In this document: one piece after another, positions 30,216 to 46,053 of the stretch | Position numbering within the stretch: position 1 is the stretch's first letter | How the letters are laid out: every line of letters begins with the position of its first letter | Position numbers and translations under genes: made by a program | Assembly: GCA_947089855.1 (NCBI GenBank) | Contig: CAMUML010000035.1 | Span: 1 to 48,251, forward strand | Direction: 5' to 3' | Length of the DNA stretch: 48,251 nt | Source: an uncultured Eubacterium sp. | GTDB lineage: Bacteria > Bacillota > Clostridia > Lachnospirales > Lachnospiraceae | Notes under the pieces: generated by a model | Told to the model about the DNA's origin: nothing | The model's input: only the letters and a program-made list of their open reading frames with translations | The model's database searches: none

Positions 30216-31844
30216 TCAATCAACTGCAAACAACTCTTTTACCTTATTCATCCGGTAAAAAAACGTATTCTTATGGATACACAAATTCTGTGCTGAAATC
30301 GACAGATTATCAATATGCGTCAGATATTCAGCCAGAGTTTCCAAGTATTTTGTATTATTTTCAGTATCGTACTTTTGTATTGCAAAAATCGCAGGATGGC
30401 AAAAATCTTTTAATTCATGTGTTTCTGACAGGATCTTCCCGATATGGTAAATATAAAAGTCTGTATAAAAACCGATTGGTGTCTGTGGGGCAAAATAAGC
30501 CTTGTATTCTTTGACGCTTAAAGTTTGTTCGTAATGTTTTTTCACATCCGCTAACTGGGAAAACCGGTTGCTTAAAATCCCATACATATTGTTGCGTTCC
30601 AGCCGTTCCGACAGTGGGGAGCAGGTTTGGAATTCTTCCAGTCCATCGGTTTCTTTCATGATCAGGAACACGAGGTTGCCGTCCTGGATCGTCCAGTGGC
30701 AGTCTGGCAGGAGGCTGGACAGCTGGATGGAAAAGATTTCTGCTTTTTTGTGGATATTTGCCTGTGGCTGGCTGATTGAAAAAACTGTAAAAATATACAG
30801 GTATGGTGCGTCTTTCCATCCAAGCAGGTTCTTTCTGGATTCAATAGCTGGCAGGCTGCTGAATTTTTGGTCGAGCAGTTCAGACAAGAATATGCCATGC
30901 ATCTGCATCAGATGGGGCGAGACAAAGCTTTTCTTTTGCATTTCCCAAGCCACGAGCTGGCTTAAAAAATGGATAAATTCAAAATCATAATCTGTAAACG
31001 GGTGGTCGTATTCGGTTACGCCGATTTCCGCGACTTCAATGCCGTGGATAAAGACTAGCGTATCTACCCAGTAATAGTCAGAATCGGAAGCTTTTCCATA
31101 ACGCAGCTTTTTGCTGGATGCGCGGAGCTGTTCAAATATTTTATCCCGTTTCATACGTTTTAAGTTGTATTCCGTTAAAAAGCCTAGGCTGCGTTGTGTA
31201 CCCAGGTTAAGTGCTGCATCCAAGACGGTGTCTCGGTACATGGCTAAAATCCGATAGCTGGAATCGATTACAATGATTGGCGAGCGGCTGATAATACAAG
31301 CTTCGTCGATAAGATGCTGCAGCCCACGGTTGGAGTTGGATGCTGCAACTAAACGGTTGATCTGGCTGGTATAGCGGTTTTCAGCCAGGAAGGTATGGGA
31401 AGCTTTATCATATACGTGTTTGAGCGGCATGTCTTTGCCACAGGCCAGAAAAATAAAGTTAGCGTTCGGGTATTGGGCGGCATATTGGGGCAGGTTTTGC
31501 CGAAGCAGACCAGGGGAGCGACTGGATCCGGCAGGCTTTGCTGTGTGGTTTGCTGCACCTGGCAGGCAGCTGGAACCTTCCTGCAGCTCCATGCCAATCA
31601 GGCATAGGAAATTCAGAGGCAGTTTTGATGAGCAGGAAAGAATCGTTTGATTGCAGCCAATATATAGGATATGCGGTTCCAGGAGGGTATCTGGCGTAAA
31701 TGGCATAAAGGTATAGATTTCTTCTTCCGGGTTTACGAACGTTGTTTCTAATATTGTGCTGGAGTATGATCCGTTAGCCGCTTTTGGTTTAATGTCTGAT
31801 GTTGGATCTCTTTTGTATTGTTCTTTAAATTGTATGATCTTCAT
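30216..31844 (-). CDS. PucR-family transcriptional regulator
   Basis: 542-residue regulator. The last 45 residues hold the PucR-type helix-turn-helix (LETLAEYLTHIDNLSISAQN then LCIHKNTFFYRMNKVKEL). The middle (about 185-300) is GAF-like (SRSPIIVIDSSYRILAMYRD), followed by a GGDEF-like/CdaR domain. The N-terminal 150 residues are not recognised; they could be the ligand-sensing part. AAGGGA precedes the start on the minus strand. It is divergent from the YkvI-like transporter and the ACP-hydrolase gene run, so it is the likely activator or repressor of that locus, probably responding to its substrate. Confidence 0.85.
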   Translation of the reverse strand: MKIIQFKEQYKRDPTSDIKPKAANGSYSSTILETTFVNPEEEIYTFMPFTPDTLLEPHILYIGCNQTILSCSSKLPLNFLCLIGMELQEGSSCLPGAANHTAKPAGSSRSPGLLRQNLPQYAAQYPNANFIFLACGKDMPLKHVYDKASHTFLAENRYTSQINRLVAASNSNRGLQHLIDEACIISRSPIIVIDSSYRILAMYRDTVLDAALNLGTQRSLGFLTEYNLKRMKRDKIFEQLRASSKKLRYGKASDSDYYWVDTLVFIHGIEVAEIGVTEYDHPFTDYDFEFIHFLSQLVAWEMQKKSFVSPHLMQMHGIFLSELLDQKFSSLPAIESRKNLLGWKDAPYLYIFTVFSISQPQANIHKKAEIFSIQLSSLLPDCHWTIQDGNLVFLIMKETDGLEEFQTCSPLSERLERNNMYGILSNRFSQLADVKKHYEQTLSVKEYKAYFAPQTPIGFYTDFYIYHIGKILSETHELKDFCHPAIFAIQKYDTENNTKYLETLAEYLTHIDNLSISAQNLCIHKNTFFYRMNKVKELFAVD

Positions 31845-32167: not shown

Positions 32168-33346
32168 ATGAAGAACAAAAGCAGCAGTGCCCAGGTTGCG
32201 CTGGGTGTGGGGTTTGTCTGGTTTACCAGCCAGTTTGGGGGCGGTTTTGCATCCGGTACGCAGTTGTACCAGTATTTCATTAATTTTGGGATCTGGTGCC
32301 TGTTGACGCCTGCGCTGGCACAGTTATACCAGGCAGTGTTCCAATGGTACGCACTCCGGTTTGCGTATGATAACCGGACGGCAAATTACCGTGATTTCTG
32401 TGACAAATTCTATGGGAAATTCCGTTTTATCTTTTCCAACCTTTATGAAGCGGTATATTTTATGCTGATCTTGCTGGCGCCGTCGATTGCGTTTGCAACG
32501 GGGGGTTCTACCCTAAATGAATTGACTGGCATTCCGTATTTGGCTTGTACGGCAATTGTGGGGGTTTTTATTTTTGCGGTATCGCTGTGCAATACGGATA
32601 TGATCCGCAAGGCAGCGACCATCGTATCTTATTTGCTGATTATTGGTGTTTTGTGCGTATTTTTGCCAAATATTGTTGCCCAATGGGGCAGTATTTGCGA
32701 TGCGGTTTCCCAGATGGCTGACGGCACGCTGCCGGTCGGGTCTGCGGAAAGCGGTTCCTTTGGGAGTGCGCTTTGGTACTGCAACTTATATGGTGCGTAT
32801 CATATCGCTTCTGTTGGGCTATATGTGCAGCATGCGCAAAAATTTACAGATAGAAAGCAATGTTTTACCAGTATGCTGTATGGATTTTTTATTAATGCTA
32901 TTATTATTTCGCTGGTGGCAGTAGGGCTATTGGCAGTTTCCATGAACCCAAAGCTGCCGGAGTATTCTGTCTATACGCTGCTTTTTGCCCAGTGCGGCGT
33001 AGCATCCGGCATCCTTGCGCCGATGGTGTCGGTACTCATTATTATAGGGTCTGTTTTTTCGGGTGTAAATATGATCACTGGGTTTGTCAACCGTGTGGTA
33101 ACGGGGCTTGAAAAGAAGGAAGATGCGAAAGCGGCGGAAAGCAAGCACCGTATGCGCACGGTTGTAACGGCATTGGTTTGTACAGTAGCGACCTTTTCCA
33201 TTGCCCAGTTCGGGCTGCTGCCGTTGGTACGAAAAGGTTACAGCTATCTGGGTTTTGCATGTATGATCGTGCTTGTGGTTCCGTTTTTGATACGGATGGT
33301 GATGGAAGCATTTGGCATGGTATCGAATAAAGTGCAGGATGTATAA
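32168..33346 (+). CDS. YkvI-like membrane transporter (COG3949)
   Basis: 392-residue integral membrane protein with about ten hydrophobic helices. The N-terminus (VALGVGFVWFTSQFGGGFAS then GTQLYQYFINFG) is the conserved glycine-rich first helix of YkvI-type proteins, which belong to the APC/SSS-like transporter fold. ATG 32168 is directly after AAGGAGGCAGCT; the in-frame upstream ATG 32153 overlaps the RBS region and is rejected. Family substrates are not well established; here it is positioned to import the substrate, or export the product, of the following enzymes. Confidence 0.8.
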   Translation: MKNKSSSAQVALGVGFVWFTSQFGGGFASGTQLYQYFINFGIWCLLTPALAQLYQAVFQWYALRFAYDNRTANYRDFCDKFYGKFRFIFSNLYEAVYFMLILLAPSIAFATGGSTLNELTGIPYLACTAIVGVFIFAVSLCNTDMIRKAATIVSYLLIIGVLCVFLPNIVAQWGSICDAVSQMADGTLPVGSAESGSFGSALWYCNLYGAYHIASVGLYVQHAQKFTDRKQCFTSMLYGFFINAIIISLVAVGLLAVSMNPKLPEYSVYTLLFAQCGVASGILAPMVSVLIIIGSVFSGVNMITGFVNRVVTGLEKKEDAKAAESKHRMRTVVTALVCTVATFSIAQFGLLPLVRKGYSYLGFACMIVLVVPFLIRMVMEAFGMVSNKVQDV

Positions 33347-33353
33347 AAGGTGT

Positions 33354-33383
33354 TTGACTAAATCATTTCAATTATTATTATAA
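33354..33383 (+). promoter_or_regulatory. Candidate promoter of the ACP-hydrolase operon
   Basis: TTGACT (33354-33359) followed, after 16-18 bp of A/T-rich sequence, by TATTAT/TTATAA (33376-33383), 24 bp or so before the start codon's RBS AGGAGG. The exact -10 cannot be fixed. It may give the ten-gene run a promoter separate from the transporter. Confidence 0.5.
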
Positions 33384-33406
33384 AAACAACAGGAGGTATT
33401 ACAACC

Positions 33407-35905
33407 ATGAGCATCAAACAGCAGATATTTGAAAAGCTTGTAGAACGGGCAGCGCCGCTGTTCGGCAAAACAAAAGCAGAACTGACACAGGAAACCCGCT
33501 TTGCAGAAGACTGTAATGCAAAATCGACCCATTTTTCACAGATCACTACTTATTTGGAAGATGAATTTGATACTGAAATCCCTTATATGTCCTTCCGTAG
33601 GCAGAAAACGATAGGCGAAGCAGTCAATTATGTATTGACGGAATGCCTGGGCGAAGCCGCTGATGACAGCGAGGTGGGCGTTATTGCATCTGGCCAGGCT
33701 CCGGCTGCTGCTGGTGCTGCTTATACCCCGCGCCAGCAGGAAGTGCTTGCAAAACTGGCGGAGCGTGCGGCAGGCTTGTTCCAGGTTGCGGTTTCCGAAG
33801 TTACAAGGGAGAAGGAATTTGCCAAGGATTTTCATGCAAAAAGCGTACAGTATTCGCAGATTACAACTTATCTGGAAGATGAGTTTGATATTGAGATCCC
33901 TTATATGGAGTTCCGCAGGCAGGCGACGGTCGGTGAAGCGGTGGATTATGTTGTGGAAGAATGCTTAGGGGAAGCGGTTGCACCGGCAGCAGATACGGCT
34001 TTTGCTCCGGGTTTGGCGGCGGGTACAACAGCTAACGCACCGGCACCAGCTGCAGTGGCAGGCACAGCGGCTCCTGCACCGGCGCAAGGAAGCGCTTCTT
34101 CTGCGAAATCAGACCATGACGATGAATTGGCAGCGCGGGAACGTTTTACATTAAAAGAAACGTTCCAGGGGGAAGAGCTGGAAGCAGTGTATATGGTGGC
34201 AAGGAAGCCGGTATCGGTAGATCCGGATGTAGATTTGTCAGCAGCTGACGACCCGATGGCACGTATGGGACAGGGGTTCTGCCCGGCTTTTTGCCAGCGT
34301 ACTTATGAAGCGGCTCCTGGCATTTTGTGTGAGCAGGATGTGCCGGTGAAAATGCGTGACGGCGTTACGATTTATGTGGATATTTTTAGGCCAAAGGATG
34401 AGAGCCAGACGTATCCGGTCATTGTATCCTGGTCCTGGTTTGGCAAACGTCCGGGCGAGGGTATGAGTGAATGGCAGATTATGGGCGTGCCGCCGCACAC
34501 AGTATCAAAGCTGGCAAAATTTGAATCGCCGGATCCGATGTACTGGTGTTACCAGGGTTATGCAGTCGCAAACGTAGATGTACGCGGCGCAGGCCATTCG
34601 GAAGGGAATGTACATATGTTTACCCATCAGGACCGGGAAGACGGGTATGATTTTGTGGAATGGGTAGGCACACAGCATTGGTGTAACGGCAATGTCGGTA
34701 TGGCTGGAAATTCTGGTGTAGCAATGCACCAGTGGGGCATTGCAGCGATGCAGCCGCCGCATCTAAAATGTATCGCACCATGGGAATGCACGACGGACCT
34801 TTACCGTGAATCCTTCTATGAAGGCGGTGTTCCGGCGCTTTCCTTTAACAAATTTATTTCGGCACAGGTAACCGGTACGGGCGGAGTGGACAGCCAGGTC
34901 GATATGGCAGAAAAATATCCGCTGATCAATGGGTATTGGGAAGATAAGCGGCCAGACTTTTCCAAGGTAGAGGTGCCGATTTACCAGACTGCAGGGTTTT
35001 CGCATTTCCATTTAAGGGGGTCATGCCAGGCATTCCGTAAGGCGAAATCTAAACGGAAATGGCTGCGGGCACACCGGGACTTTGAATGGCCGGATACCTA
35101 TACGCCGGAAAACCTGGAAGATCTGAAGCGTTTTTATGACCGGTACTTAAAGGATATACATAATGGCTGGGAAATGACGCCGAAGGTACGGATCGACGTT
35201 ATGGATGCTTATGACTGTGATTACCAGACAAAGCGTGCAGAAAACGAGTTCCCGCTGAAACGGACGGAATACAGGAAATATTACCTGGATGCTTCGGATC
35301 CAAATAGCCTGACCATGAAGGATGCGCCGGTATCCGTTGAAAGCAGCGTTGCTTATGACGGCAATACCCAGCAAGTGGAATTTGATATGGCCTTTGGGGA
35401 AGATACGGAACTGACGGGGTATATGTACCTGCATCTGTTTGTGGCAGCAGAGTCCTATAACGATATGGATATGTTTATCAATATCCAGAAAGCGGACGCG
35501 GACGGGAACTGGATCCCTTGGTATACGTTAAATGAGCCGCATCCGGGTGCGTGGGGCAAGTGCCGTATTTCCCACCGGGAGATCAGCAAAGAAGAGTCGC
35601 AGATTGTAAAAGGGCTTATGGTCCAGCCGGTGATGGCGCATAAACGTGAGCTGAAAGTGCAGCCGGGTGAGATTGTACCGGTTGATATTGAGATCGTGCC
35701 ATCTTCCCGTATCTGGCATAAAGGGGAAAAACTGCGTATCCAGATCGCAGGGCGTTATATCCGGGAAGGATGGTTTGAACCGCTGGCATGGGATACGGAT
35801 AACCACGGACGCCAAATCATTTATACGGGCGGCAGGTATGAGTCATTTATCCAGGTGCCGGTCATCCCTCCAAAATATAAAGCCGGGGACTATGTATACC
35901 GGTAA
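33407..35905 (+). CDS. Tandem acyl-carrier-protein / CocE-NonD-type hydrolase fusion
   Basis: 832-residue three-part protein. Residues 1-84 and about 106-188 are two similar ACP-like domains (helix, FAEDCNAKSTHFSQITTYLE, helix, EIPYMSFRRQKTIGEAV). The putative phosphopantetheine serines are Ser40 and Ser146, in AKST and AKSV where ACPs usually have DSL. An Ala/Pro-rich linker (about 190-235) leads to an alpha/beta hydrolase plus C-terminal beta-sandwich of the CocE/NonD/X-Pro peptidase class: VKMRDGVTIYVDIFRPKD, VDVRGAGHSEG, nucleophile Ser436 in GNSG, candidate His556. The position of the family's usual aspartate (GWYD) reads GFSH. AGGAGG precedes the ATG. An AcpS gene follows. I know of no standard family with this architecture. 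Confidence 0.82.
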   Translation: MSIKQQIFEKLVERAAPLFGKTKAELTQETRFAEDCNAKSTHFSQITTYLEDEFDTEIPYMSFRRQKTIGEAVNYVLTECLGEAADDSEVGVIASGQAPAAAGAAYTPRQQEVLAKLAERAAGLFQVAVSEVTREKEFAKDFHAKSVQYSQITTYLEDEFDIEIPYMEFRRQATVGEAVDYVVEECLGEAVAPAADTAFAPGLAAGTTANAPAPAAVAGTAAPAPAQGSASSAKSDHDDELAARERFTLKETFQGEELEAVYMVARKPVSVDPDVDLSAADDPMARMGQGFCPAFCQRTYEAAPGILCEQDVPVKMRDGVTIYVDIFRPKDESQTYPVIVSWSWFGKRPGEGMSEWQIMGVPPHTVSKLAKFESPDPMYWCYQGYAVANVDVRGAGHSEGNVHMFTHQDREDGYDFVEWVGTQHWCNGNVGMAGNSGVAMHQWGIAAMQPPHLKCIAPWECTTDLYRESFYEGGVPALSFNKFISAQVTGTGGVDSQVDMAEKYPLINGYWEDKRPDFSKVEVPIYQTAGFSHFHLRGSCQAFRKAKSKRKWLRAHRDFEWPDTYTPENLEDLKRFYDRYLKDIHNGWEMTPKVRIDVMDAYDCDYQTKRAENEFPLKRTEYRKYYLDASDPNSLTMKDAPVSVESSVAYDGNTQQVEFDMAFGEDTELTGYMYLHLFVAAESYNDMDMFINIQKADADGNWIPWYTLNEPHPGAWGKCRISHREISKEESQIVKGLMVQPVMAHKRELKVQPGEIVPVDIEIVPSSRIWHKGEKLRIQIAGRYIREGWFEPLAWDTDNHGRQIIYTGGRYESFIQVPVIPPKYKAGDYVYR

Positions 35906-35914
35906 ATAGGTAAA

Positions 35915-35953
35915 CGCAGCCGTCCAGGTTTCCTGCCATACTGGGCGGTTGCG
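35915..35953 (+). other. Intercistronic hairpin
   Basis: CGCAGCCGTCCAG (35915-35927) pairs with CTGGGCGGTTGCG (35941-35953), allowing two G-T pairs, around a 13-nt loop. There is no T-run, so it is more likely an mRNA stability or processing element than a terminator. It lies between the fusion gene and acpS. Confidence 0.45.
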
Positions 35954-36064
35954 GATAAACAGAGAACGTAAAGGCTGCAGGGGCAAGGGATAACCTGTGG
36001 CCGGGAAATAATAGATGGCGCAGGCAGCAGGATATAGCAGGTTGGACATGTATAGGGGCAGGAT

Positions 36065-36463
36065 ATGGTCATTGGGGTTGGAACCGATATTTTAAATATG
36101 AAACATATTTCAGGCGAATACTTAAAAGCGGGCGACCCGTTTTTGGAAAAGACTTATTCCGTAAAGGAACAGGAAGAAGCAGGAAAGCGGGAACTGCCTT
36201 TTTATTATTACGCAACCAGGTTTGCTGGAAAAGAAGCGGTATTTAAATCGCTTGGAATTTCCCCGCAGCATGTGCTGCTGTCAGAAATAGAAATTTTAAA
36301 TGACAGTTATGGGGCGCCCTATGTAACGCTTTATGGAAATTTAAAGCAGGCTGCACTGGAAAGGGGGATTACGGACGTCCGGGTTTCCCTTTCCTATGAG
36401 GAAAGTTATGCGTCGGCTTTTGCTGTTGCACAAGGGCAGCAGGAAATTCCAGTATCCGTATGA
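36065..36463 (+). CDS. acpS: Holo-ACP synthase (4'-phosphopantetheinyl transferase)
   Basis: 132-residue AcpS-type enzyme that moves phosphopantetheine from CoA to a carrier-protein serine. GVGTDILNM with Asp8 and RFAGKEAVFKSLG with Glu57 are the magnesium-binding motifs; VSLSYEESYASAFAVAQ is the usual C-terminal strand pair. AGGGGCAGG precedes ATG 36065. Located directly after the tandem-ACP gene, it probably modifies Ser40 and Ser146 there, and is likely additional to the housekeeping enzyme elsewhere in the genome (inference). No fatty-acid genes are nearby. Confidence 0.88.
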   Translation: MVIGVGTDILNMKHISGEYLKAGDPFLEKTYSVKEQEEAGKRELPFYYYATRFAGKEAVFKSLGISPQHVLLSEIEILNDSYGAPYVTLYGNLKQAALERGITDVRVSLSYEESYASAFAVAQGQQEIPVSV

Positions 36464-36524
36464 CAGGCTGCATAGGAAAAACAGACATGGCAGCCAGGGC
36501 AGCAAAAAGGAGGAAAACAGACAG

Positions 36525-37523
36525 ATGGCGTTAATTGAAGAGCTGATAGAGAAAGCAAAACAAAATCCCAAACGGATTGCCCTTCCGGAATGTGAAGCAG
36601 AAAAGACGCTTCTGGCCGCAAGGCAGGTTTTGGATGCAGGCATTGGAGTGCCAGTGCTGGTAAATGACCCGGAGGTTATCAAAGAAACGGCACAAAAAGC
36701 GGGAGTTTCGACCGAAGGGATGGAGATCGTAGACATTACCGACGAAGCATACCGCGATGGCGTGATTGCGCGGTATATGTCTTATCCAAAGCTGATGCTT
36801 TCCGAAAAAGGGGCTAGGCGCAAGATGAAAAACCCAATGTATTACGCTATGATCCTGGAAGCGGCCGGGGATGTGGACGGGACATTCTGCGGGCATGTCA
36901 ATACGACAGGTGATGTGCTGTTATGCGCGCAGCAATGCATTGGCATGCAGGACGGCGTAGATGTGCCTTCTATTTTTGCATTGACAGAGATCCCGGGGTT
37001 TGAAGGGCCGCAGGGAAACCTGATCGCATTGGCTGACTGCGGGCTGAACCCGGAACCAGCTGCGGATGAATTGGCATCGATTGCGATCGCATCGTGCGAT
37101 AATATACAGGCGTTGATGGGATGGGAGCCAAGGTGTGCGTTCCTTAGCTTTTCTACATGTGGTTCTGGGACGGCTGCCAGTGTGGATAAAATTTTAGAAG
37201 CGGTCCGCATTGCAAAAGAACGCCGCCCGGATCTAAAGATTGATGGAGAATTCCAGCTGGACTCTGCAATTTGTCCGCAGGTGGCCCAAAAGAAAGTAAA
37301 CCGGCCAAGTGAAGTTGCAGGAAAGGCCAATATCCTGATTTTCCCGGAATTAAACGCGGCGAATATCGGCATTAAGATGATACAGCTTTTTGCGAAGGGA
37401 AAGGGCTATGGCCATACACTCAGCGGTTTTGCAAAGCCGGTGGCGGATTCGTCCAGGGGCGCCAGTGTAGAAGAGATCGTGGGGGATATTGCAATGGTAA
37501 TTATAGCGGCGGCAAATGCCTAA
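36525..37523 (+). CDS. Phosphate acyltransferase, PTA/PTB family
   Basis: 332-residue enzyme of the phosphotransacetylase family, exchanging an acyl group between phosphate and CoA, or possibly another phosphopantetheine thiol. Family blocks seen: RIALPECEAEKTLLAARQVL, GHVNTTGDVLLCAQQCIG, ALTEIPGFEGPQGNLIALAD, DGEFQLDSAICPQVAQKK, ILIFPELNAANIGIKMIQLF, and ADSSRGASVEEIV with the catalytic-type Ser-Arg. The length is nearer Pta than Ptb. The common GNIGYK reads ANIGIK, a hint of altered acyl specificity. AGGAGG precedes ATG 36525; the frame upstream is chance. Butyrate kinase follows, so acyl-phosphate is the shared intermediate. Confidence 0.85.
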   Translation: MALIEELIEKAKQNPKRIALPECEAEKTLLAARQVLDAGIGVPVLVNDPEVIKETAQKAGVSTEGMEIVDITDEAYRDGVIARYMSYPKLMLSEKGARRKMKNPMYYAMILEAAGDVDGTFCGHVNTTGDVLLCAQQCIGMQDGVDVPSIFALTEIPGFEGPQGNLIALADCGLNPEPAADELASIAIASCDNIQALMGWEPRCAFLSFSTCGSGTAASVDKILEAVRIAKERRPDLKIDGEFQLDSAICPQVAQKKVNRPSEVAGKANILIFPELNAANIGIKMIQLFAKGKGYGHTLSGFAKPVADSSRGASVEEIVGDIAMVIIAAANA

Positions 37524-37544
37524 AGTATGAGAGGAGGAAGCGGT

Positions 37545-38651
37545 ATGGGGTATCGGGTATTTACATTGAGCCCAGGCTCTACGTCTACAAAGCTGGCGGT
37601 ATTTGATGGGGAAAAACGCCTGTTTAAAGCGAATGTGCAGCACGACCCGGAAAAGTTAAAAGGGTTTGCCCGTGTCAGCGAGCAGAAGCCTTACCGTGTG
37701 GAGACGATTTTATCGGAGCTTCGGGAAAACCAGATCGAAATCAAAGATATGGATGCGTTTGCGGCGTATTCCGGCGGGCTAGTGTCTACGCCGGGCGGGA
37801 TTTTTCCGGTGAATGATAAAATATTGGAGGATTGTACGTCAGGGCGCCTAATGGAGCACCCGGCGATCTTGGGCGCGCAGATTATAGACGCGTTTGCAAA
37901 GGAAACCGGCAAGCCGGCATATCTGGTGAATCCGCCGGATGTCGATGAATTTGAGGATGTTGCCAGGCTGACCGGTATCAAAGGCATTTACCGGGAATCC
38001 CACGTGCATGTGTTAAACCAGAAGGAAACTGCCATGCGCGCGGCAAAAGAACTTGGCAAAAAGTATGAAGCTTGCAATTTTATCGTATGCCATGTTGGCG
38101 GTGGGCTTTCGATTACCGCGCAAAAGCAGGGGAAGATAGTGGACGGCAACGACGTATTAAACGGGGAAGGCCCGATGGCGCCGAACCGCAGCGGCTATGT
38201 CCCGTTGATGCCGGTTGTAAAGATGTGCTATTCCGGCGAATATACGCTTCAGGAAATGAAGGAAAAAATCAGCAAAACCGGCGGGCTGGTTTCCCTGCTT
38301 GGCACAGATGATATGCTGGAGATTAAAAAGCGGATCTTAAACGGGGACAGGTGGGCTGCATTGGTTTATAAGAATTTTGCTTACCAGCTTGGAAAATATA
38401 TTGGTTCTTATGCCTGTGTTATGGAAGGCAAAGTCGATGCCATTGTTATGACAGGCGGTGTGTCCAACGATGCAGATTTTATTCAAAATGTGAAAAAATA
38501 TGCCGGGTGGATTGCCCCGTTTATCGTTTATGGCGGAGATTTTGAGATGGAAGCATTGGCATCCGGCGCTATCCGTGCCCTGGAACAGACAGAGGGGCTG
38601 CAGGAATATACGGGTGTACCGGTATGGAGCGGGTTTGATTTTGAATATTGA
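37545..38651 (+). CDS. buk: Butyrate kinase-family acyl kinase
   Basis: 368-residue ASKHA-fold kinase that interconverts a carboxylate and ATP with acyl-phosphate and ADP. TLSPGSTSTKLAVFDGEKRL is the N-terminal phosphate loop, FIVCHVGGGLSITAQKQGKI and NGEGPMAPNRSGYVPL the central ATP/substrate blocks, and IVMTGGVSNDADFI the adenosine motif. Length and motifs match butyrate/branched-chain-fatty-acid kinases. GAGGAGG lies before ATG 37545, so the in-frame ATG 37527 is rejected. With the preceding phosphotransacylase it could make ATP from acyl-CoA, or activate a free acid. Confidence 0.88.
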   Translation: MGYRVFTLSPGSTSTKLAVFDGEKRLFKANVQHDPEKLKGFARVSEQKPYRVETILSELRENQIEIKDMDAFAAYSGGLVSTPGGIFPVNDKILEDCTSGRLMEHPAILGAQIIDAFAKETGKPAYLVNPPDVDEFEDVARLTGIKGIYRESHVHVLNQKETAMRAAKELGKKYEACNFIVCHVGGGLSITAQKQGKIVDGNDVLNGEGPMAPNRSGYVPLMPVVKMCYSGEYTLQEMKEKISKTGGLVSLLGTDDMLEIKKRILNGDRWAALVYKNFAYQLGKYIGSYACVMEGKVDAIVMTGGVSNDADFIQNVKKYAGWIAPFIVYGGDFEMEALASGAIRALEQTEGLQEYTGVPVWSGFDFEY

Positions 38652-38737
38652 CATAGGGCAAAAAAGGGCAGGTACGGTTTTGGGTAACGCATAGTATTGT
38701 GGGAAATGGGCGGCTGTCTAAGCTAAACCGTGCGGAA

Positions 38738-38751
38738 GGCAAAATTTTGCC
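38738..38751. repeat. Short palindrome in the buk-hydrolase spacer
   Basis: GGCAAAATTTTGCC is a perfect 14-bp palindrome in the 130-bp gap before the next gene. It could be an operator; nothing else recognisable is in the gap. Confidence 0.3.
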
Positions 38752-38781
38752 AGTCAGTATAAATTAAGGAAGGTATGGCAG

Positions 38782-39765
38782 ATGGGGAAAAGGATACGAT
38801 TATGTCCGGAAATTACCGACCCGTATTTGCGGAGTTTTTTGAATACGGTTCCGGACATCCGCATGTTTCAAGACGGGCTGGCTATGGAGCAGGCGCTGGC
38901 AGGGCAGGTTTGTGAAGTTGCATTGCCTGGCCGGGAGATTACGGTATGCATACACCGGGCAGGCGCTGGTATACGGCCGGTAGTATTTGAATTCCACGGC
39001 GGCGGTTTTATTTTTGGAAATGCGCAAAAAGATGACAAGATCTGCCAAAAGGTCAGTAAGTCGTTACAGTGCCATGTAATCGGAGTGAATTACCGCCTTG
39101 CACCGGAACACCCTTATCCAGCGGCGTTTGAAGATGCATATGATACGATTTTGTATTTTAAGGAACATGCAGGGGAATACGGTATTGATATACGCCATAT
39201 GGCAGTGATGGGCTATTCCGCAGGGGCAGGCCTTGCAACAGCGGTAGCAATGCGCTGCCGCAGGGAAGGCCATTTTTCCCTTTGCGGCCAGGTATTGCAT
39301 TATCCGTATTTGGATTCGGTGCATATGCCGCAGGAGAAGCCGCATTATGACTGTGATATGGACCCTGAGGTAATGCGGGCATTTACAGTGCTGTATGCAA
39401 AGGAGGAACAACGCAATATCCCGTATGTGTCTCCGGTTTGTGCATCCAAAGAAGACCTTGCAGGCCTTGCACCGGCATGTATCCTGCCAGCGGAAAAGGA
39501 TGGATTAAAAGAGGAAGGGCTGCTGTATGCGGATTTACTGAAAAAAGCAGGGGTGCCGGTATACTGCCAGGTGGTGCCGGATGTGCATCATGGGTATATA
39601 GAAGATGCCGGCAATGAAGCCGTGTATCAGGCAATGGCGGAAGATACGCGGGCGCTTCACAGCCTATATTTTAGGGATTGGGCAAATGCAGCGTTGGATA
39701 TTGCCGTTACGTTTTTAAAGCGTCGGTTTCAGGATGGCGGGTTTGGTAACAGTGGAAAGGACTAA
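38782..39765 (+). CDS. Alpha/beta hydrolase, HSL/esterase type
   Basis: 327-residue hormone-sensitive-lipase-family esterase. The oxyanion motif is VVFEFHGGGFIFGN (about residue 75), the nucleophile elbow MGYSAGAGLATA (about 150), the acid DGLKEEG and the histidine HHGY near residue 275. All catalytic elements are present, so it is probably active on a small ester or lactone, or on an activated acyl group. AAGGAAGG precedes ATG 38782. It is the second hydrolase in this operon, in contrast to the ACP-fused one with a doubtful acid residue. Confidence 0.86.
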   Translation: MGKRIRLCPEITDPYLRSFLNTVPDIRMFQDGLAMEQALAGQVCEVALPGREITVCIHRAGAGIRPVVFEFHGGGFIFGNAQKDDKICQKVSKSLQCHVIGVNYRLAPEHPYPAAFEDAYDTILYFKEHAGEYGIDIRHMAVMGYSAGAGLATAVAMRCRREGHFSLCGQVLHYPYLDSVHMPQEKPHYDCDMDPEVMRAFTVLYAKEEQRNIPYVSPVCASKEDLAGLAPACILPAEKDGLKEEGLLYADLLKKAGVPVYCQVVPDVHHGYIEDAGNEAVYQAMAEDTRALHSLYFRDWANAALDIAVTFLKRRFQDGGFGNSGKD

Positions 39766-39783
39766 ACAAGGAAAGGAAACAGT

Positions 39784-41244
39784 ATGAAAACGATAAAAGC
39801 AGATGTAGCAGTCATTGGGTCTGGCCCATCCGGTTTAGCAGCGGCAGCGCAGTCGGCAGAAAACGGCCTGGATGTCGTTGTATTTGAAAAAGCAGCTGTC
39901 GTAGGGGGCGCTGCCAATATGGGTATGGGCCCGTTTGGCATTGGCACGAAGCAGCAGGGCGATATGATGGTAGACATCGACGTAGAAAAAGCATTTAAAA
40001 TGTTTATGGAATATACGCATTGGAGGTCCGATGCGCGTATGGTAAAGAAATATTTTGAAAATTCCGGCGATACGATCCGCTGGCTGGAAGAATCCTGTGG
40101 CGTAGAATTTGCGGGCGCGTATAAATATTTCCCGAAGTCAGAAGCAACCTGGCATATTGTAGCGGTAAACGGTGGGATTGGACGTAACGGCGGCGCAATT
40201 ATGAATAAGCAGATTTCAGAATATGCGAAAGAAAACGGCGCGCAGTTTTATATGGAAACACCTGCAAAGCAGATTTTAAAAGATGGGGAAGGAAAGATTT
40301 GCGGCGTACTGGCAGTAGGCAGCGATGGGGAGGAGATCCAGTGTGGCTGCAAAGCGGTTATCTTGGCAACCGGAGGTGCTGGGGACAATCCGACGATGAT
40401 CAAAGAACGTACGGGGTATACCTTCCAGGAAAATATGTTTAATTTTGCGATACCAGGGCTGAAAGGCGACGGGATCAAAATGGCAGAGGAAGTAGGGGCT
40501 GCATCTACACCGATGAATGTGGAGATGATGTATATCCTGCCGAATTCAGATTTTGGCCCAGACTGTATCCCGTCTGTATTTATGCAGCCGAATTTAATGG
40601 TTAACCAGCTGGGGCAGCGTTTTATCAATGAAGAAGAAATGCAGAATACAACGTTTACCGGAAATGCGATTTCTTTCCAGAAAGGCGCAGTAGGCTATTC
40701 TATCATTGATTCCAGGATTGCAAAAGGCTATATGAAAAAGGGCGTGGACGTAGTCAATTTTGTACACCATCCGGAAGATGTTTCGGATTTTGCACAGGCA
40801 GTCGACGACGCGGTTGCAAGCGGCAACCCAGATCTGGTAAAAGCGGATTCGATTGAGGAACTGGCAGAAAAACTGGGCATCGACCCGGAAGCGCTGGAAG
40901 AAACCATCGATGAGTACAATGAAATGTGCGAGTCCCATGACAGCATGTTTTACAAGAATCCAAAATTTATGAAGCCGATCGAAAAAGCGCCGTTTTATGC
41001 AGGCAAGTTCCGTCCAGGCGGATATGGGACGCTTGGCGGCATTAAGATCAATGAAAACGCTGAAGTATTGGATAAGGAATGGGAAAAAATCCCTGGCCTG
41101 TATGCGTGCGGGACAGACACCTGTACTATTTATGGGGATTCCTATATGTTCCTGCTGCCAGGGAATACAATGGGCTATTGCCTGAATTCCGGACGTTTTG
41201 CAGGCGATTCCGCAGCTGATTATATAAATGGCGATGAAGAGTAG
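39784..41244 (+). CDS. FAD-dependent reductase, fumarate-reductase/flavocytochrome-c-like
   Basis: 486-residue cytoplasmic flavoprotein of the FAD_binding_2 class. DVAVIGSGPSGLAAAAQSAE is the dinucleotide fold; VGGAANMGMGPFG replaces the usual GG.S..SGG; LATGGAGDNP, RFINEEEMQNTTF and GTLGGIKINENAEVLD, then the C-terminal GLYACGTDTCTIYGDSYMFL, follow the family order. There is no signal peptide, heme or FMN domain, so electrons must come from partners. The following Fe-S genes fit that role. Family members reduce activated C=C bonds or dehydrogenate steroids; the substrate cannot be read. AAGGAAA precedes the ATG. Confidence 0.86.
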   Translation: MKTIKADVAVIGSGPSGLAAAAQSAENGLDVVVFEKAAVVGGAANMGMGPFGIGTKQQGDMMVDIDVEKAFKMFMEYTHWRSDARMVKKYFENSGDTIRWLEESCGVEFAGAYKYFPKSEATWHIVAVNGGIGRNGGAIMNKQISEYAKENGAQFYMETPAKQILKDGEGKICGVLAVGSDGEEIQCGCKAVILATGGAGDNPTMIKERTGYTFQENMFNFAIPGLKGDGIKMAEEVGAASTPMNVEMMYILPNSDFGPDCIPSVFMQPNLMVNQLGQRFINEEEMQNTTFTGNAISFQKGAVGYSIIDSRIAKGYMKKGVDVVNFVHHPEDVSDFAQAVDDAVASGNPDLVKADSIEELAEKLGIDPEALEETIDEYNEMCESHDSMFYKNPKFMKPIEKAPFYAGKFRPGGYGTLGGIKINENAEVLDKEWEKIPGLYACGTDTCTIYGDSYMFLLPGNTMGYCLNSGRFAGDSAADYINGDEE

Positions 41245-41306
41245 AGTTATCTGGACTGTTGCCACATTGAGGCTGGATGGGAATTCAAAAATGATGGAGA
41301 TTAAAT

Positions 41307-43502
41307 ATGAGTGGAACAATAACGTTGACCATTGATGGACAGACGGTAAAAACAGAACCTGGCAAAACGATTTTGGAAGCCGCTTTGGATCATGGAATTT
41401 ATATCCCGCATCTGTGCAGCCATGAAAATTTACATCCGGCAGGGGCCTGCCGCCTTTGCGTGGTAGGCCAGCAGGGTGTAGAAGGTGTAGTTACCTCCTG
41501 TACGGAAAAAGTGCAGGAGGGCATGGTAATTGATACCCATGATGAAACAGCAGAAAAAATACGCAAACTCTCTTGTGATTTTATGTTTAAAACACATCCG
41601 GCAGAATGCACAGGCTGCCCGAAATACGGCAAATGCCAGCTGCAGTCTATTTCCCAGTATGTCGGGGATACCGGCAGGAAGCTGAAAGCCAATACCATAA
41701 ACGTCAAAGCAGACCATAGCAACCCGATTATCCTGCATGAAATGTACCGCTGTATCCTTTGTGGCCGCTGCGTGCGTGCCTGCAATGACCTGCGTGGGGT
41801 GGGTGCGATCCGTTTTGGCGAGGTAAACGGCAGAAGGCAGGTCGTGATCGACGGGGCATCGTTAAAAGATGCGGATTGCCGGTTTTGTACGGCATGTGTG
41901 GAAGTCTGTCCGACCGGGTCTATCCGGGAACATGAAGAATTGGCGGAAAAGCTGGTTGGCAAAACCAGGGAGGAAGGGTTTGTACCATGCCGGAATGCAT
42001 GCCCTGCCCATGTGGATGTGCCGCGGTATATCCGTTTTATCAAAGAAGGGGATTATGCGGCTGCGGCAGCAGTTGTCCGGGAAAAAGTGCCGTTCCCGCA
42101 TGCTTTGGGGTATATCTGCGTACACAATTGTGAATTGGAATGCAAGCGTACAGAATTAAATGAGCCGATCGCTATCCGGAACCTGAAGCGTTATGCGGCG
42201 CAGCAGGATAACGGTGCGTGGAAGCAAAAAGGGTTCCAAAAGCCGTTAACCGGGAAAAAGCTAGCGGTGGTTGGCGCAGGCCCTGCGGGGCTGACAGTTG
42301 CCTATTATGCCGCAAAACTTGGCCACAGCGTAACCGTTTATGAAGCAATGCCGCTTGCTGGCGGGCAGATGCGCTATGGTATCCCAAACTACCGCCTGCC
42401 GCGGGAAGCGCTGGATGCAGAAATCCAGGAGATTTTAACGCAGGGGCAGCAAGATCCGCAAAACCAGATCAAAATCTTATACCAAACCCCGGTCCATCAT
42501 GCGCCGGAATTATTAAAACAAGGGTTTGATGCCGTATTTGTAGCCATTGGAACCCATGCGGGAACCAAACTTCCGATACTAGGCAATGATCTGGACGGTG
42601 TTTTGGTAAATGCAGACTTCCTGCGTGATTTTGAAGAAGGGAACGCGAAGGTAGGCAAAAAAGTAGTTGTCTTAGGCGGCGGGAATGTAGCAGTAGACTG
42701 TGCAGGCGTAGCCCTGCGGCTCGGTGCAGAATCCGTATCAATGGCCTGCCTGGAAGCGTATGGCCAGATGACTGCATCCGACGAAGAGCGCAATTGGGCG
42801 CAAGAAGAAGGCGTCAAGCTTTATAACAGCAAGACCTTCCATGAAATCTTGGACGATGGAAACGGCCATTGTGCAGGCGTACGGATCCAGGGCATAGACA
42901 AATTCTATTTTGACCAGGACCGCAAGGTGCATATGGAGCTTGCCGAAGGGACAGAAGAAGTATTAGAGGCGGATACTGTGATATTTGCAGTCGGGCAGCG
43001 TCCTACGATCTCAGCTGATCCAGACGTATTTGGGCTGGAATTAACGCATGGCAATTATATACAGACAAAAGGGCCGGCGGGAGAGACGAGCGTAACCGGC
43101 GTCTGGGCAGCAGGCGATGCCGTAACCGGCACACAATCTGTAATCAAGGCGATTGCAGCCGCCAGGGAAGCCGTCCAGGAAATCGATCGGTATTTAGGCG
43201 GCGACGGCAATATAGACGAAGCGCTTGCGCCTCAGCAGTATAAAAACCCTTATATCGGTGTGGCCGAGCACTTTGGCGATAAGGAGCGGGTGCAGCCACG
43301 CGTAGTGCCGGTGCCGGAGCGGGTGACCAATTACAGCACCTGCGGCCCGATGGATTTAGGGTTTGATGGGGAAATGGCTGCGTGTGAAGCTGCACGGTGC
43401 CTGCAATGCGACCTTAGATGCGAGCTTGCGCCTCAGAAATTCTGGAGCGATTATATGCCTGGAAATGGATCTGATAAAAAACCTGGTATAGAGGAGGGAT
43501 GA
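41307..43502 (+). CDS. NuoG-like Fe-S / glutamate-synthase-small-subunit-like FAD-NAD(P) fusion
   Basis: 731-residue electron-input protein. The N-terminus is NuoG-like: a 2Fe-2S site (Cys37, Cys48, Cys51, Cys65), HPAECTGCPKYGKCQL, then two 4Fe-4S motifs (CILCGRCVRACNDLRG; CRFCTACVEVCPTGSI). From about residue 225 it is GltD/NfnB-like: CRNACPAHVDVPRYIRFIKE, FAD loop VVGAGPAGLTVAYYAAKLGH, and NAD(P) loop VVLGGGNVAVDCAGVALRLG. A further cysteine group near the C-terminus (ARCLQCDLRCE) could bind another cluster. This order resembles HydA-like/StnC-like subunits of cytosolic transhydrogenases. It probably takes electrons from NAD(P)H to the flavoprotein reductase upstream. Confidence 0.85.
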   Translation: MSGTITLTIDGQTVKTEPGKTILEAALDHGIYIPHLCSHENLHPAGACRLCVVGQQGVEGVVTSCTEKVQEGMVIDTHDETAEKIRKLSCDFMFKTHPAECTGCPKYGKCQLQSISQYVGDTGRKLKANTINVKADHSNPIILHEMYRCILCGRCVRACNDLRGVGAIRFGEVNGRRQVVIDGASLKDADCRFCTACVEVCPTGSIREHEELAEKLVGKTREEGFVPCRNACPAHVDVPRYIRFIKEGDYAAAAAVVREKVPFPHALGYICVHNCELECKRTELNEPIAIRNLKRYAAQQDNGAWKQKGFQKPLTGKKLAVVGAGPAGLTVAYYAAKLGHSVTVYEAMPLAGGQMRYGIPNYRLPREALDAEIQEILTQGQQDPQNQIKILYQTPVHHAPELLKQGFDAVFVAIGTHAGTKLPILGNDLDGVLVNADFLRDFEEGNAKVGKKVVVLGGGNVAVDCAGVALRLGAESVSMACLEAYGQMTASDEERNWAQEEGVKLYNSKTFHEILDDGNGHCAGVRIQGIDKFYFDQDRKVHMELAEGTEEVLEADTVIFAVGQRPTISADPDVFGLELTHGNYIQTKGPAGETSVTGVWAAGDAVTGTQSVIKAIAAAREAVQEIDRYLGGDGNIDEALAPQQYKNPYIGVAEHFGDKERVQPRVVPVPERVTNYSTCGPMDLGFDGEMAACEAARCLQCDLRCELAPQKFWSDYMPGNGSDKKPGIEEG

Positions 43503-43505
43503 TCG

Positions 43506-44822
43506 ATGTTAAAAGAAATGGATTGTACCGATTCCCAGGTACGTAAAATACTCTCGCCTGCCAATGGCGGGCTGTCTGTAGAAGCCGTACAGGCATTAGA
43601 TATGCACACAAAATATGGCGTTGATCTTGCTCCTATACTCCAGGACGCTAGGCAGCGGGGCGGCGCCGCATTGGTAGTAAATTTGGCTGGGGACGATAGC
43701 AGTGCGCCATTGAATGCCTTTCTGGCAGCCGCCCAGCCAGAGAAACTTTCGCTTGCTATAACAGCGGTTGCAAAAGCAGCCGATGCGGAGGAAATCTATC
43801 TGGTAAAGCCAAAGGAAATCGATTTTATGTTCACAGGGGCAGAAGGTACAGCCAACGGCCTGGTTGTGAAAACAGTGGAAGCAGGCCGTTCCCTTGTATT
43901 GCGGGAAGAGTCTGCGCTATACCATTGGATAGCGTCAGGCGTACTGTCTGCAAGCCCAATGGAAAAAGAATTTCCATCACAAGGCTGGCAGGGGCGCCCA
44001 GCTATTGCCCTGGATGCAGAAACACTTTGCAGGATATACGAAGCAGCAAAACCTGGATATATAGAATCAAAACTAGTCGTCATCTTTTGCGCAGGGGAAA
44101 GCCGGGTCGCAGAGGTAAAGGCCGAAACCAGCCTGCAGACGTTGCTTACAGAATGCGGGATCCAACCAGAAAAAAGTGTGCTGGTCGGCGGCGTGTCCGG
44201 CGAATTTGTCGCAGCAGGCCAATGCGGCCAAAAAACAGTCGGGCTTGACGCACAGTGGGACAGCATCGTAGTATATGGGGAAAAAGACTGCCTGGCAGAT
44301 GTGACGAAAAACCTTGCCATACAGGCCAACCGGGAATCCTGTAAAACATGTGTCCTGTGCAGGGAAGGTACATGGCATTTTCAGGCAATTACGCAGGATA
44401 TTACAGCTGGCAGGGCGAAAAAAGAAGACCTTGCGATGATCTTGGATATTGGGCCATTGATCCAGGTAGGGGCACTATGCCATTTGGGGCGTGGCATGGC
44501 CCGTGCCATCGTCAGTTCTATAGAACAAAACCGGCCGGAATTGGAAGCGCATTTTACCAAAAAGGTTTGTCCAGCAGGCGTATGCAAAGCGTTTGCCAAA
44601 TTGGCCATTGACCCGGCCAAATGTACCGGATGCGGCGCCTGTATCGATGTATGCGATGAAGATGCGATTACCGGCAGGAAAAAATTTATCCATATTATCG
44701 ATAACGACTTGTGTGAAAATTGCGGGAAATGCGCGGATGTATGCGAAGAACATGCAATTGTAGCACAGGACGGTACAGTCCGTGTACCAAAGAAGCCAGT
44801 GAAAGTGGGAAAATTTAAATAA
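43506..44822 (+). CDS. NuoF-like Fe-S protein lacking a clear NADH/FMN site
   Basis: 438-residue protein. The C-terminal half is NuoF-like: ESCKTCVLCREG with Cys279, Cys282 and Cys285, and Cys325 in GALCHLGRG, form the N3-type 4Fe-4S site, followed by two ferredoxin motifs (Cys373-383 and Cys403-413, CTGCGACIDVC and CENCGKCADVC). An SLBB-like stretch (about 195-245) comes before. The N-terminal 190 residues sit where the NADH/FMN domain should be, but GRGGAGFP is not intact (only RQRGGAA is seen). So it is probably an electron relay rather than an NADH dehydrogenase. It starts three bases after the preceding stop, with AGGAGG. Confidence 0.82.
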   Translation: MLKEMDCTDSQVRKILSPANGGLSVEAVQALDMHTKYGVDLAPILQDARQRGGAALVVNLAGDDSSAPLNAFLAAAQPEKLSLAITAVAKAADAEEIYLVKPKEIDFMFTGAEGTANGLVVKTVEAGRSLVLREESALYHWIASGVLSASPMEKEFPSQGWQGRPAIALDAETLCRIYEAAKPGYIESKLVVIFCAGESRVAEVKAETSLQTLLTECGIQPEKSVLVGGVSGEFVAAGQCGQKTVGLDAQWDSIVVYGEKDCLADVTKNLAIQANRESCKTCVLCREGTWHFQAITQDITAGRAKKEDLAMILDIGPLIQVGALCHLGRGMARAIVSSIEQNRPELEAHFTKKVCPAGVCKAFAKLAIDPAKCTGCGACIDVCDEDAITGRKKFIHIIDNDLCENCGKCADVCEEHAIVAQDGTVRVPKKPVKVGKFK

Positions 44823-44964
44823 ACAAGATATATGGAAAGAATACACCAGTTTACAACTTTTTAGGTTTTGGCATATTTTTACAAAACCAAGAACTATATA
44901 TTGCATATACCTGCAACTGTTCAATCTATATCTTGTTTTTGAGGAAAAACTTGTAAACTGGCGT
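44821..44964 (+). promoter_or_regulatory. Interleaved inverted repeats before the flavodoxin-family gene
   Basis: Arm A AAACAAGATATA (44821-44832) pairs with 44927-44938, and arm B ACACCAGTTTACAACTTTTT (44843-44862) pairs at 18 of 20 positions with 44945-44964. The order is A-B-A'-B', so both helices can coexist only as a pseudoknot; otherwise they compete. GTTTTT-GAGG-AAAAAC (44935-44950) is a third hairpin across A' and B'. The B arm with its downstream flank recurs at 46359-46403. Candidate regulatory leader; class not recognised. Confidence 0.5.
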
Positions 44965-45001
44965 AAAGAATATGCAAATGTAGCACAAGGAGGGATTTTC
45001 T

Positions 45002-45946
45002 ATGAAAATTTTAGGCATTTCATCAGGGACGTTTAATGGCTCCAATGATTCCATGTGTAAAGAAGCCTTAATGGGCGCACAGGAAGCGGGAGCAGAGATT
45101 GAATTTATCAATTTACATAAATTGGACATCAAGCATTGCACCGGGTGCATTGCCTGCGTCAAAGCAATGATGGGCGGCAAAGGGCGTATTTGTTCCGTAA
45201 AAGACGACTTTTTGTGGCTGCTGGATAAAATGCTGGATGCAGACGGCATTATGATGGTATCCCCAATTTTTGAAAATGGCGTCCCAGGCATTATCCACAC
45301 GATCTGCGACCGTTTTGGGCCGTCTATGGACAGGGGCAACCTAGTAATCGCAGATTCCCTAAATAAAAAAGCGGGCGGGCCAGGTGTCGACGAACGCCTG
45401 TTACGTGACAAAGTAATTTCTTTTATCGGTATAGGCGGGTCGGATTGGGGATCCCTCGTGCAGATGGATCACGGAATGCTTGCAATGAGCCCAATGTGGA
45501 AAATTATTGACAACGATAAATTTCAATGGTCCAAGACCATCCTGATGGATGACAAAGCGCTTGCAAGGGCGCATCAAATCGGAATCAACCTTGCCAATGC
45601 CGCAAAGGATATTAATAATGCATCCTGGCAGGGAGAGGAAGGCGTCTGCCCGCATTGCCACTGCAACAACTTCTATATCGAGCCAGGAACCACCCATGCA
45701 ATCTGCGGCCTGTGCGGCATGGAAGGGGAGTTGGAATCCATAGACGGTAAAATAAGGATCAATTACCCACAAGAGCAGTATGCGCTGGCACACGATACCA
45801 TGTCCGGAAAGATGAAACATGGCAAAGATATACAGGAAAATGAAGGGCGTTTGGCTTACCTGCAGAAAAACAGCGATGAATTTAAAGCACGTAAGAAAAA
45901 ATATATGGACTTTATCCAGCCGACAGTTCCGCAAAAAGGGGCTTAA
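45002..45946 (+). CDS. Flavodoxin-family FMN protein with C-terminal zinc-ribbon-like motif
   Basis: 314-residue protein. The N-terminus is the flavodoxin/NADPH-dependent FMN reductase fold: MKILGISSGTFNGSNDSMCK phosphate loop, HCTGCIACVKAMMGGKGRIC (a cysteine cluster as in Fe-S flavoproteins), and DGIMMVSPIFENGVPGIIHT. At about residues 215-240 CPHCHCNNFYI and CGLCGMEGEL form a four-cysteine ribbon that is unusual for the family and may bind zinc. A charged helical tail follows. AAGGAGG precedes the ATG. It probably exchanges electrons with the preceding Fe-S proteins, or is itself a reductase. Confidence 0.8.
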   Translation: MKILGISSGTFNGSNDSMCKEALMGAQEAGAEIEFINLHKLDIKHCTGCIACVKAMMGGKGRICSVKDDFLWLLDKMLDADGIMMVSPIFENGVPGIIHTICDRFGPSMDRGNLVIADSLNKKAGGPGVDERLLRDKVISFIGIGGSDWGSLVQMDHGMLAMSPMWKIIDNDKFQWSKTILMDDKALARAHQIGINLANAAKDINNASWQGEEGVCPHCHCNNFYIEPGTTHAICGLCGMEGELESIDGKIRINYPQEQYALAHDTMSGKMKHGKDIQENEGRLAYLQKNSDEFKARKKKYMDFIQPTVPQKGA

Positions 45947-46053
45947 AGAAGCATAGGCAATCGCGGTATTTGCAGCTGGCTTCTTAAAGCTAAAATTGAA
46001 AAAATATATAAATAGCGTAGCCGTGTATAAAAGATGTGGCTTTAATTGGGAAG

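Follow-up and report, generated by a model that had tools for sequence, protein, structure and literature searches.

A run of ten genes in a 48,251-nucleotide stretch of DNA from an uncultured Eubacterium sp. (hereafter the window; contig C35, CAMUML010000035.1) very probably serves flavonoid catabolism, and it contains a conserved core made up of an acyl carrier protein (ACP), a CocE/NonD hydrolase, a PTA-family phosphotransacylase (PTA) and a butyrate kinase (BUK). We consider it likely that ACP, PTA and BUK form an acyl relay. More tentatively, and at somewhat less than even confidence, we propose that the run as a whole is a flavonoid-degradation operon in which this carrier-protein relay would keep bond energy as ATP. 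All ten plus-strand genes (positions 32168-45946, gaps of 3 to 179 bp) and the PucR-type gene on the opposite strand were present at or near the positions given in a preliminary description made from the sequence alone (Table 1). The window belongs to a 4.08-Mb draft genome (G000; 101 contigs) that is 89.7% complete, and any absence in this genome may therefore be a gap.

The identity of the acyl carrier was addressed through the residues with which phosphotransacetylases hold coenzyme A (CoA). According to passages of PMC6461089, Arg89 and Lys92 of the P. gingivalis enzyme (PgPta) hold the 3'-phosphate of acetyl-CoA and Arg135 its beta-phosphate, and Arg89 and Arg135 correspond to R87 and R133 of M. 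thermophila Pta; we equated Lys92 with K90 by our own numbering offset from PgPta. Across 69 unique module-type PTAs, R87 was retained once, K90 and R133 never, and the catalytic residues S309 and R310 were present in all 69. The lone R87 (locus L107) lies inside a gapped stretch. Housekeeping PTAs, ten unique sequences that share more identity with M. thermophila Pta than with the window protein and were listed after the residue table had been viewed, kept R87, K90 and R310 in all ten cases and R133 and S309 in nine. The identity split was confirmed for 10/10 housekeeping and 69/69 module-type sequences, where two of the ten housekeeping PTAs come from G107, a genome in which the module is not known, and the 69 include the thiolase-linked type of Olsenella as well as L197 and L208, two loci included without a neighbourhood reading. 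In a midpoint-rooted FastTree phylogeny (with two duplicates in the tree), the module-type PTAs formed one clade with a support of 0.83. In the PTA domain of a malic enzyme, acetyl-CoA was no longer bound once the Arg for the 3'-phosphate had been lost (passages of PMC7902834). If acyl groups leave the ACP through the PTA, this enzyme need not bind CoA, and the joint loss of the CoA-phosphate contacts suggests a change of carrier in which the module PTA would take acyl-ACP instead of acyl-CoA. This narrows towards ACP what the preliminary description had given as an 'ACP (or CoA)' thioester.

The longest open reading frame of the window PTA starts at 36396, and its homologous part begins at about 36525. 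The protein scores as Pta-like over Ptb-like, stays below the NCBIfam pta cut-off (251.8 versus 311.2 bits) and matched only PTA_PTB in Pfam. The neighbouring kinase exceeds the cut-off of TIGR02707 (NCBIfam butyr_kinase; 395.6 versus 289.1 bits), which assigns it to the family only.

To establish how far these genes are conserved together, we used an alignment scan of GTDB species genomes, which yielded 261 relatives of the CocE protein; the counts cover the best 80 of the 261 loci and up to 10 kb on each side of CocE, often cut by contig ends. ACP was found at 70 loci, PTA at 58, BUK at 58 and AcpS at 32 (the PTA and BUK counts include a few second copies), together with the PucR regulator (46), flavone reductase (FLR)-family proteins (38, including weak matches of 24-37% identity), the FAD protein (25), NuoG-GltD (23), the HSL esterase (23), the NuoF-like relay (16) and the transporter (12). 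Merging CocE at 80% identity left 19 clusters, with ACP in 18, BUK in 17 and PTA in 16; at 90% identity there were 37 clusters (33, 31 and 29, respectively). ACP and CocE are fused at 22 of 79 loci, 14 of them with two ACPs, and the ACP is fused to or adjoins CocE at 69 of 79. By title, the 80 CocE loci belong to Lachnospiraceae, Oscillospiraceae, Coriobacteriia, Bifidobacterium, Erysipelotrichaceae, Deltaproteobacteria, a Spirochaetes metagenome-assembled genome and others. Again by title, the core recurs in Bacillota, Actinomycetota, Deltaproteobacteria and the Spirochaetes genome. In contrast, seven loci with distant CocE relatives (about 37-51% identity; L035 and L037-L042, including those of genomes G033, G265 and G378) had no ACP, PTA or BUK within the 4.8-20 kb read, and the recurrence of the core across phyla is therefore more than chance. 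Six genomes of the ACP-type clade without an ACP at the locus (G456/G259 counted once) have one elsewhere, beside the same kind of PTA; G033, G265 and G378 (CocE at about 50% identity) have only weak, housekeeping-like ACP matches. Thus the carrier-protein tether proposed in the preliminary description is a conserved feature of the core, and the co-occurrence and synteny of its families in relatives, checked here, showed genes conserved together.

The window fusion comprises ACP domains at about residues 1-82 and 109-190 followed by an S15/CocE-NonD domain (Pfam and NCBIfam), and both ACP domains carry Ser at the phosphopantetheine position. When the ACP profile was aligned with E. coli ACP, GADSLD (Ser36) fell on NAKSVN with the Ser conserved. 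This Ser occurs in 85 of 85 unique ACP domains, where it is preceded by Lys (81) or Arg (4); the Asp of the DSL motif was found in none. An AlphaFold model, which served for domain layout (mean pLDDT 81.7, pTM 0.69), has two helical carrier modules joined to the hydrolase through low-confidence linkers (residues 87-103 and 193-236), as might be expected of a swinging carrier. Cocaine esterase is among the PDB matches of the CocE domain, and its catalytic-acid region stayed unaligned with the S15 domain.

The AcpS-type protein is over the Pfam ACPS cut-off (40.8 versus 25 bits) and under that of NCBIfam acpS (52.6 versus 59.8). The sole other PF01648 match in the window genome is a 274-aa frame of Sfp-type size (contig C44; L188 1285-2109, minus strand), and no housekeeping AcpS was seen among the PF01648 matches there, perhaps since the genome is incomplete. 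Position 14 of AcpS is an Arg in B. subtilis, where it contacts Asp35 of ACP. Strict coevolution of this position with the ACP Lys was considered and rejected, as Arg occurs in many other AcpS proteins paired with Lys-Ser or Arg-Ser ACPs.

The last gene of the run points to the substrate class. Its product had been described as a flavodoxin-family protein; the gene is there, and what that label missed is its identity as an FLR homologue and with it the substrate class. Its single PDB-sequence match at E values up to 0.1 is 7d38, the FLR of Flavonifractor plautii (E 1.8e-122, 411.6 bits, residues 1-313 of 314, 180/309 identical). This enzyme begins the breakdown of flavones and flavonols, and another 11 homologues tested alongside it all converted apigenin, according to passages of PMC7862272. 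Contig C59 of the window genome (L175) groups homologues of a cupin, PGR, DPGC, TAL and HOHD/TfD, with 50-75% identity to a phloroglucinol set at L108 that was named from Pfam domains and from passages of PMC10470551 describing the PGR/DPGC/HOHD/TAL pathway. At L108 and L185, the ACP-CocE module adjoins the phloroglucinol genes. L099 has, upstream of the module, a gene for a C-glycoside deglycosidase beta subunit (PF19906) flanked by AP_endonuc_2 and GFO_IDH_MocA genes, which we take to be its usual partners. Phloretin hydrolase (DAPG_hydrolase, PF18089) was not found in the window genome, where at 89.7% completeness absence is no proof, and neither was bacterial chalcone isomerase (query confirmed as PF18232; Fcr was not searched for). 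It is because the FLR and phloroglucinol-pathway homologues occur without these two detected enzymes that we assign the run to flavonoid catabolism; the cluster, carried by a gut or rumen bacterium, probably breaks down plant flavonoids.

Co-occurrence across genomes agrees with this assignment. Of 397 family-level genomes (probably Lachnospiraceae, judged by contigs in common such as G409 and L053), 11 had the module, 20 had FLR and 23 had phloretin hydrolase. FLR was present in 6 of the 11 genomes with the module versus 14 of the 386 without it (Fisher p 2.9e-6) and, with the window's genus removed, in 4 of 9 module genomes (p about 3e-4, total kept at 397); both tests ignore shared ancestry. 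FLR and phloretin hydrolase share 11 genomes, and all three occur together in one. Mutual exclusion of module and phloretin hydrolase was also considered and dropped, since the ACP was found elsewhere in G450-G452, G455, G456/G259 and G399. In four genomes (G126, G189, G306 and G423) FLR was found without either phloretin hydrolase or the module, and these may have a further cleavage system. The association of FLR with the module beyond the window's genus, and the recurrence of the FAD protein, NuoG and FLR with the core in distant groups, also make it quite improbable that two modules merely lie side by side, with ACP-CocE-PTA-BUK acting on some other acyl compound and flavone reduction proceeding independently without shared flux. 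That arrangement would account for the many core loci at which reductases were not found and for the genomes in which core parts and reductases lie apart.

The remaining redox genes bear on the order and direction of the reactions. The nearest NCBIfam model of the FAD protein is VprA (vinyl phenol reductase), at 321.7 bits and thus under the cut-off of 600. In an alignment to 1kss, read by eye, it has Y, Q, G and Y at H365, R402, H504 and R544 of FccA, presumably the functional residues of fumarate reduction (1kss itself has Ala at 504), and their replacement makes a fumarate-type reduction unlikely. The NuoF-like relay matched only an NADH_4Fe-4S domain and a 2x4Fe-4S ferredoxin part. Because the known FLR uses free flavones and the FAD protein lacks the four fumarate-reductase residues, reduction probably precedes loading of the ACP, and the alkene reduction on an ACP-bound acyl chain that had been proposed earlier is improbable.

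The preliminary description had preferred an ATP-spending order, in which kinase and PTA form acyl-ACP, the FAD protein reduces the chain and CocE releases the product. Every part for this is present, kinase and PTA reactions are reversible and the nearest models of the FAD protein are ene-reductases. We nevertheless find this order quite unlikely: FLR points to reduction of free flavonoids, the core often stands without a reductase in the sequence around CocE, and spending ATP on a thioester that is then hydrolysed would bring a fermenter no gain. PTA and BUK would let acyl groups leave the carrier with their energy conserved, so loading the ACP is a likelier role for CocE than unloading it, and the ATP-gaining direction, which had been named as the alternative, is probably the correct one. 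A modifying role is very improbable, although acyl transfer from fused ACPs is common in biosynthesis and serine hydrolases can act as acyltransferases: kinase and PTA would then load the ACP for the CocE domain to acylate an acceptor, and the surrounding FLR, phloroglucinol and deglycosidase genes are catabolic.

In the flavonoid pathway that we propose, the FLR homologue would first act on a flavone or flavonol and reduce it to the flavanone level. The FAD flavoprotein may then reduce the enone left by ring opening, yielding phloretin or another dihydrochalcone, with electrons drawn from NAD(P)H by way of the NuoG-GltD and NuoF-like proteins. AcpS or an Sfp-type enzyme would arm the ACP serines with phosphopantetheine. 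In the weakest step, for which we see the balance as even, the CocE/S15 serine enzyme would cleave a C-C bond by attacking the aryl ketone of the acyl-phloroglucinol, freeing phloroglucinol and passing the arylpropionyl group to the tethered thiol of the fusion's own ACP and not to water. The PTA, devoid of its CoA-phosphate contacts, could turn acyl-ACP and phosphate into acyl-phosphate, from which the butyrate-kinase-family enzyme would yield ATP and free arylpropionate. Phloroglucinol would then enter the PGR/DPGC/HOHD/TAL pathway, homologues of which are encoded elsewhere in the window genome. As a precedent for the cleavage, the alpha/beta-hydrolase 2,6-dihydroxypseudooxynicotine hydrolase cleaves an acyl-dihydroxypyridine C-C bond (its paper was not found in our literature search). 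In the Pseudomonas protegens Friedel-Crafts C-acyltransferase PpATase (PhlACB), acylphloroglucinol gives its acyl group reversibly to an enzyme Cys (passages of PMC6392133).

Several observations weigh against this scheme. No member of the butyrate kinase family is known to us to use arylpropionates as substrates. The correspondence between AcpS position 14 and the ACP Lys is not strict, with non-Arg residues in the window and many relatives but Arg in many others. Further counts come from 51 module genomes, namely the window's and those of 50 of the 80 loci, hand-picked to drop near-duplicates. Chalcone isomerase occurs in only 2 of the 51, which leaves the ring-opening step without an enzyme. 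FLR at no less than 49% identity was found in 34 and is missing from 17, and DPGC at E<=1e-30 was found in 15 and is missing from 36, so some modules may serve other compounds. Phloretin hydrolase coexists with the module in 11 of the 51 and is not exclusive of it at the family level either (2 of 11 module genomes versus 21 of 386 others, p 0.13). Finally, single R89A- and R135A-type mutants of PgPta lost only 58% and 21% of activity, respectively (passages of PMC6461089).

The coexistence with phloretin hydrolase would also suit an arrangement in which the same ACP-PTA-BUK relay is fed by oxygen-ester cleavage. Here CocE, perhaps with the HSL esterase, would act on an acylated or galloylated phenolic, for example, and the dihydrochalcone would be cleaved elsewhere. 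CocE/NonD relatives of known function are esterases, and the run itself includes an HSL esterase. We regard this as unlikely: the HSL gene accompanies fewer than a third of the loci (23/80), an ordinary ester would be a poorer energetic starting point for making ATP, and the window genome, with FLR and phloroglucinol homologues and no detected phloretin hydrolase, would be left with its C-C step open. The imported ester of any kind that had been suggested as substrate likewise fits poorly with an FLR homologue in the run and with relatives whose modules adjoin phloroglucinol and C-glycosidase genes.

Phloretin hydrolase, with which anaerobic flavonoid breakdown is known to end, transfers the acyl group to water. 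The pathway of Flavonifractor plautii and Eubacterium ramulus (FLR, CHI/Fcr, EnoR, phloretin hydrolase) resembles the proposed one at its FLR start and phloroglucinol end, but in place of chalcone isomerase and phloretin hydrolase, neither detected in its genome, the window has ACP, CocE, PTA, BUK and an NAD(P)H-fed FAD reductase. Pta-Ack and Ptb-Buk, which form acids and ATP from acyl-CoA, share two protein families and the proposed chemistry with the relay, whereas in the window the PTA is devoid of CoA-phosphate contacts and occurs together with ACP and AcpS. PlsX, an acyl-ACP:phosphate acyltransferase, would likewise make acyl-phosphate from acyl-ACP, but it belongs to a Pfam family other than PTA_PTB, and the use in the window would be catabolic and coupled to a kinase. 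Carrier-bound thioesters also serve anaerobic catabolism in citrate lyase and malonate decarboxylase, which differ in prosthetic group and enzymes and have no AcpS, PTA or kinase relay. In PpATase, acylphloroglucinol is a reversible donor to an enzyme thiol, and Olsenella-type genomes encode a PhlC/PhlB-like pair close to the module; the PpATase complex, however, has a thiolase fold and uses no carrier protein or S15 hydrolase, nor does it recover ATP.

In the open full-text literature, with most subscription papers outside the search, we found no paper that connects flavonoid cleavage with PTA, butyrate kinase or an acyl carrier, and no characterised pathway with this gene set, in keeping with the preliminary description. 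By word search, 'acyl carrier' was absent from PMC11170127, PMC7862272, PMC10470551, PMC11868195, PMC12940152 and PMC8084988. Butyrate kinase is induced on phloroglucinol, for a CoA route, in passages of PMC10470551. Riboflavin degradation (PMC12934955) was examined as another candidate and set aside, the module terms being absent from that paper and 'flavoprotein' present. The ACP-based ATP step stands a fair chance of being new in principle. The broader idea is of a new, CoA-free kind of substrate-level phosphorylation, shared across phyla by anaerobes of gut, rumen and sediment among which it would have spread. Serine-enzyme C-C cleavage of an acylated polyphenol would feed a fused or neighbouring ACP, and a PTA that has ceased to bind CoA would deliver ATP together with BUK. 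This idea falls a little short of an even chance. If true, a phloretin-hydrolase-type step could supply ATP to many anaerobes of gut and rumen, and phosphotransacetylases can switch from CoA to a carrier protein. The module also offers a gene marker for possible flavonoid degraders missed by surveys of chalcone isomerase and phloretin hydrolase.

Variants of the module were seen in other genomes. Near the ACP-CocE module of Tractidigestivibacter (L253 3619-8007) lies a second unit with a thiolase, an OB protein, a small Gly-Ser carrier, a PTA free of CoA contacts and a BUK, and similar units with varying parts occur in L083, L087, L090, L091, L094, L095 and L097. The thiolase of this Olsenella-type unit matches PhlC (E 4.5e-20 to 9skh), although other thiolases score better. 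These units suggest that different cleaving enzymes are coupled to the relay of carrier, PTA and kinase. Two different ACP-CocE modules per genome, perhaps for different flavonoid classes, occur in the pairs L062/L102, L103/L117 and L096/L179. Upstream of the module, L060 (5185-6303) and L064 (1444-2583) have a 2-hydroxyglutaryl-CoA dehydratase D-type gene and an acyl-CoA dehydrogenase.

Table 1 Genes of the run and its divergent regulator, with window coordinates and basis of assignment
Feature	Position	Strand	Basis
PucR-type regulator (HTH_30), divergent	30216..31844	-	Pfam, over cut-off
Membrane protein, probably transporter	32168..33346	+	Hydrophobic sequence
Fusion of two ACPs and CocE/NonD S15-type serine hydrolase	33407..35905	+	Pfam, NCBIfam, alignment, AlphaFold
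AcpS-type phosphopantetheinyl transferase	36065..36463	+	Pfam ACPS, 40.8 bits
PTA-family phosphotransacylase without CoA-phosphate contacts R87, K90, R133 (M. thermophila numbering)	36525..37523	+	Pfam, alignment
Butyrate kinase family (BUK)	37527..38651	+	TIGR02707, 395.6 bits
HSL-type esterase (Abhydrolase_3)	38782..39765	+	Pfam
FAD_binding_2 ene-reductase candidate	39784..41244	+	Pfam; nearest NCBIfam model VprA
NuoG N-terminal part fused to GltD-like NAD(P)H:FAD part (electron input)	41307..43502	+	Pfam, NCBIfam
NuoF-like Fe-S relay (NADH_4Fe-4S + 2x4Fe-4S)	43506..44822	+	Domain matches
Flavone reductase (FLR) homologue	45002..45946	+	PDB 7d38 match

The first gene of the run starts at an ATG preceded by AAGGAGG. 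Its product had no Pfam or NCBIfam match and is labelled a transporter because of its hydrophobic sequence; we take it to be YkvI-like. Rfam and tRNA scans of the window were both empty, and scans for terminators and promoters found 17 (17.4 expected) and 37 (23.8 expected), respectively. The G+C content of the run (0.46-0.53; 32001-46000) is higher than before it (0.37-0.46) and after it (0.43), which suggests that the run was gained by transfer. The next gene downstream is guaA, and the region before the run (7200-30200) holds surface-polysaccharide genes, the last ones read including FnlA- and WbcJ-like enzymes.

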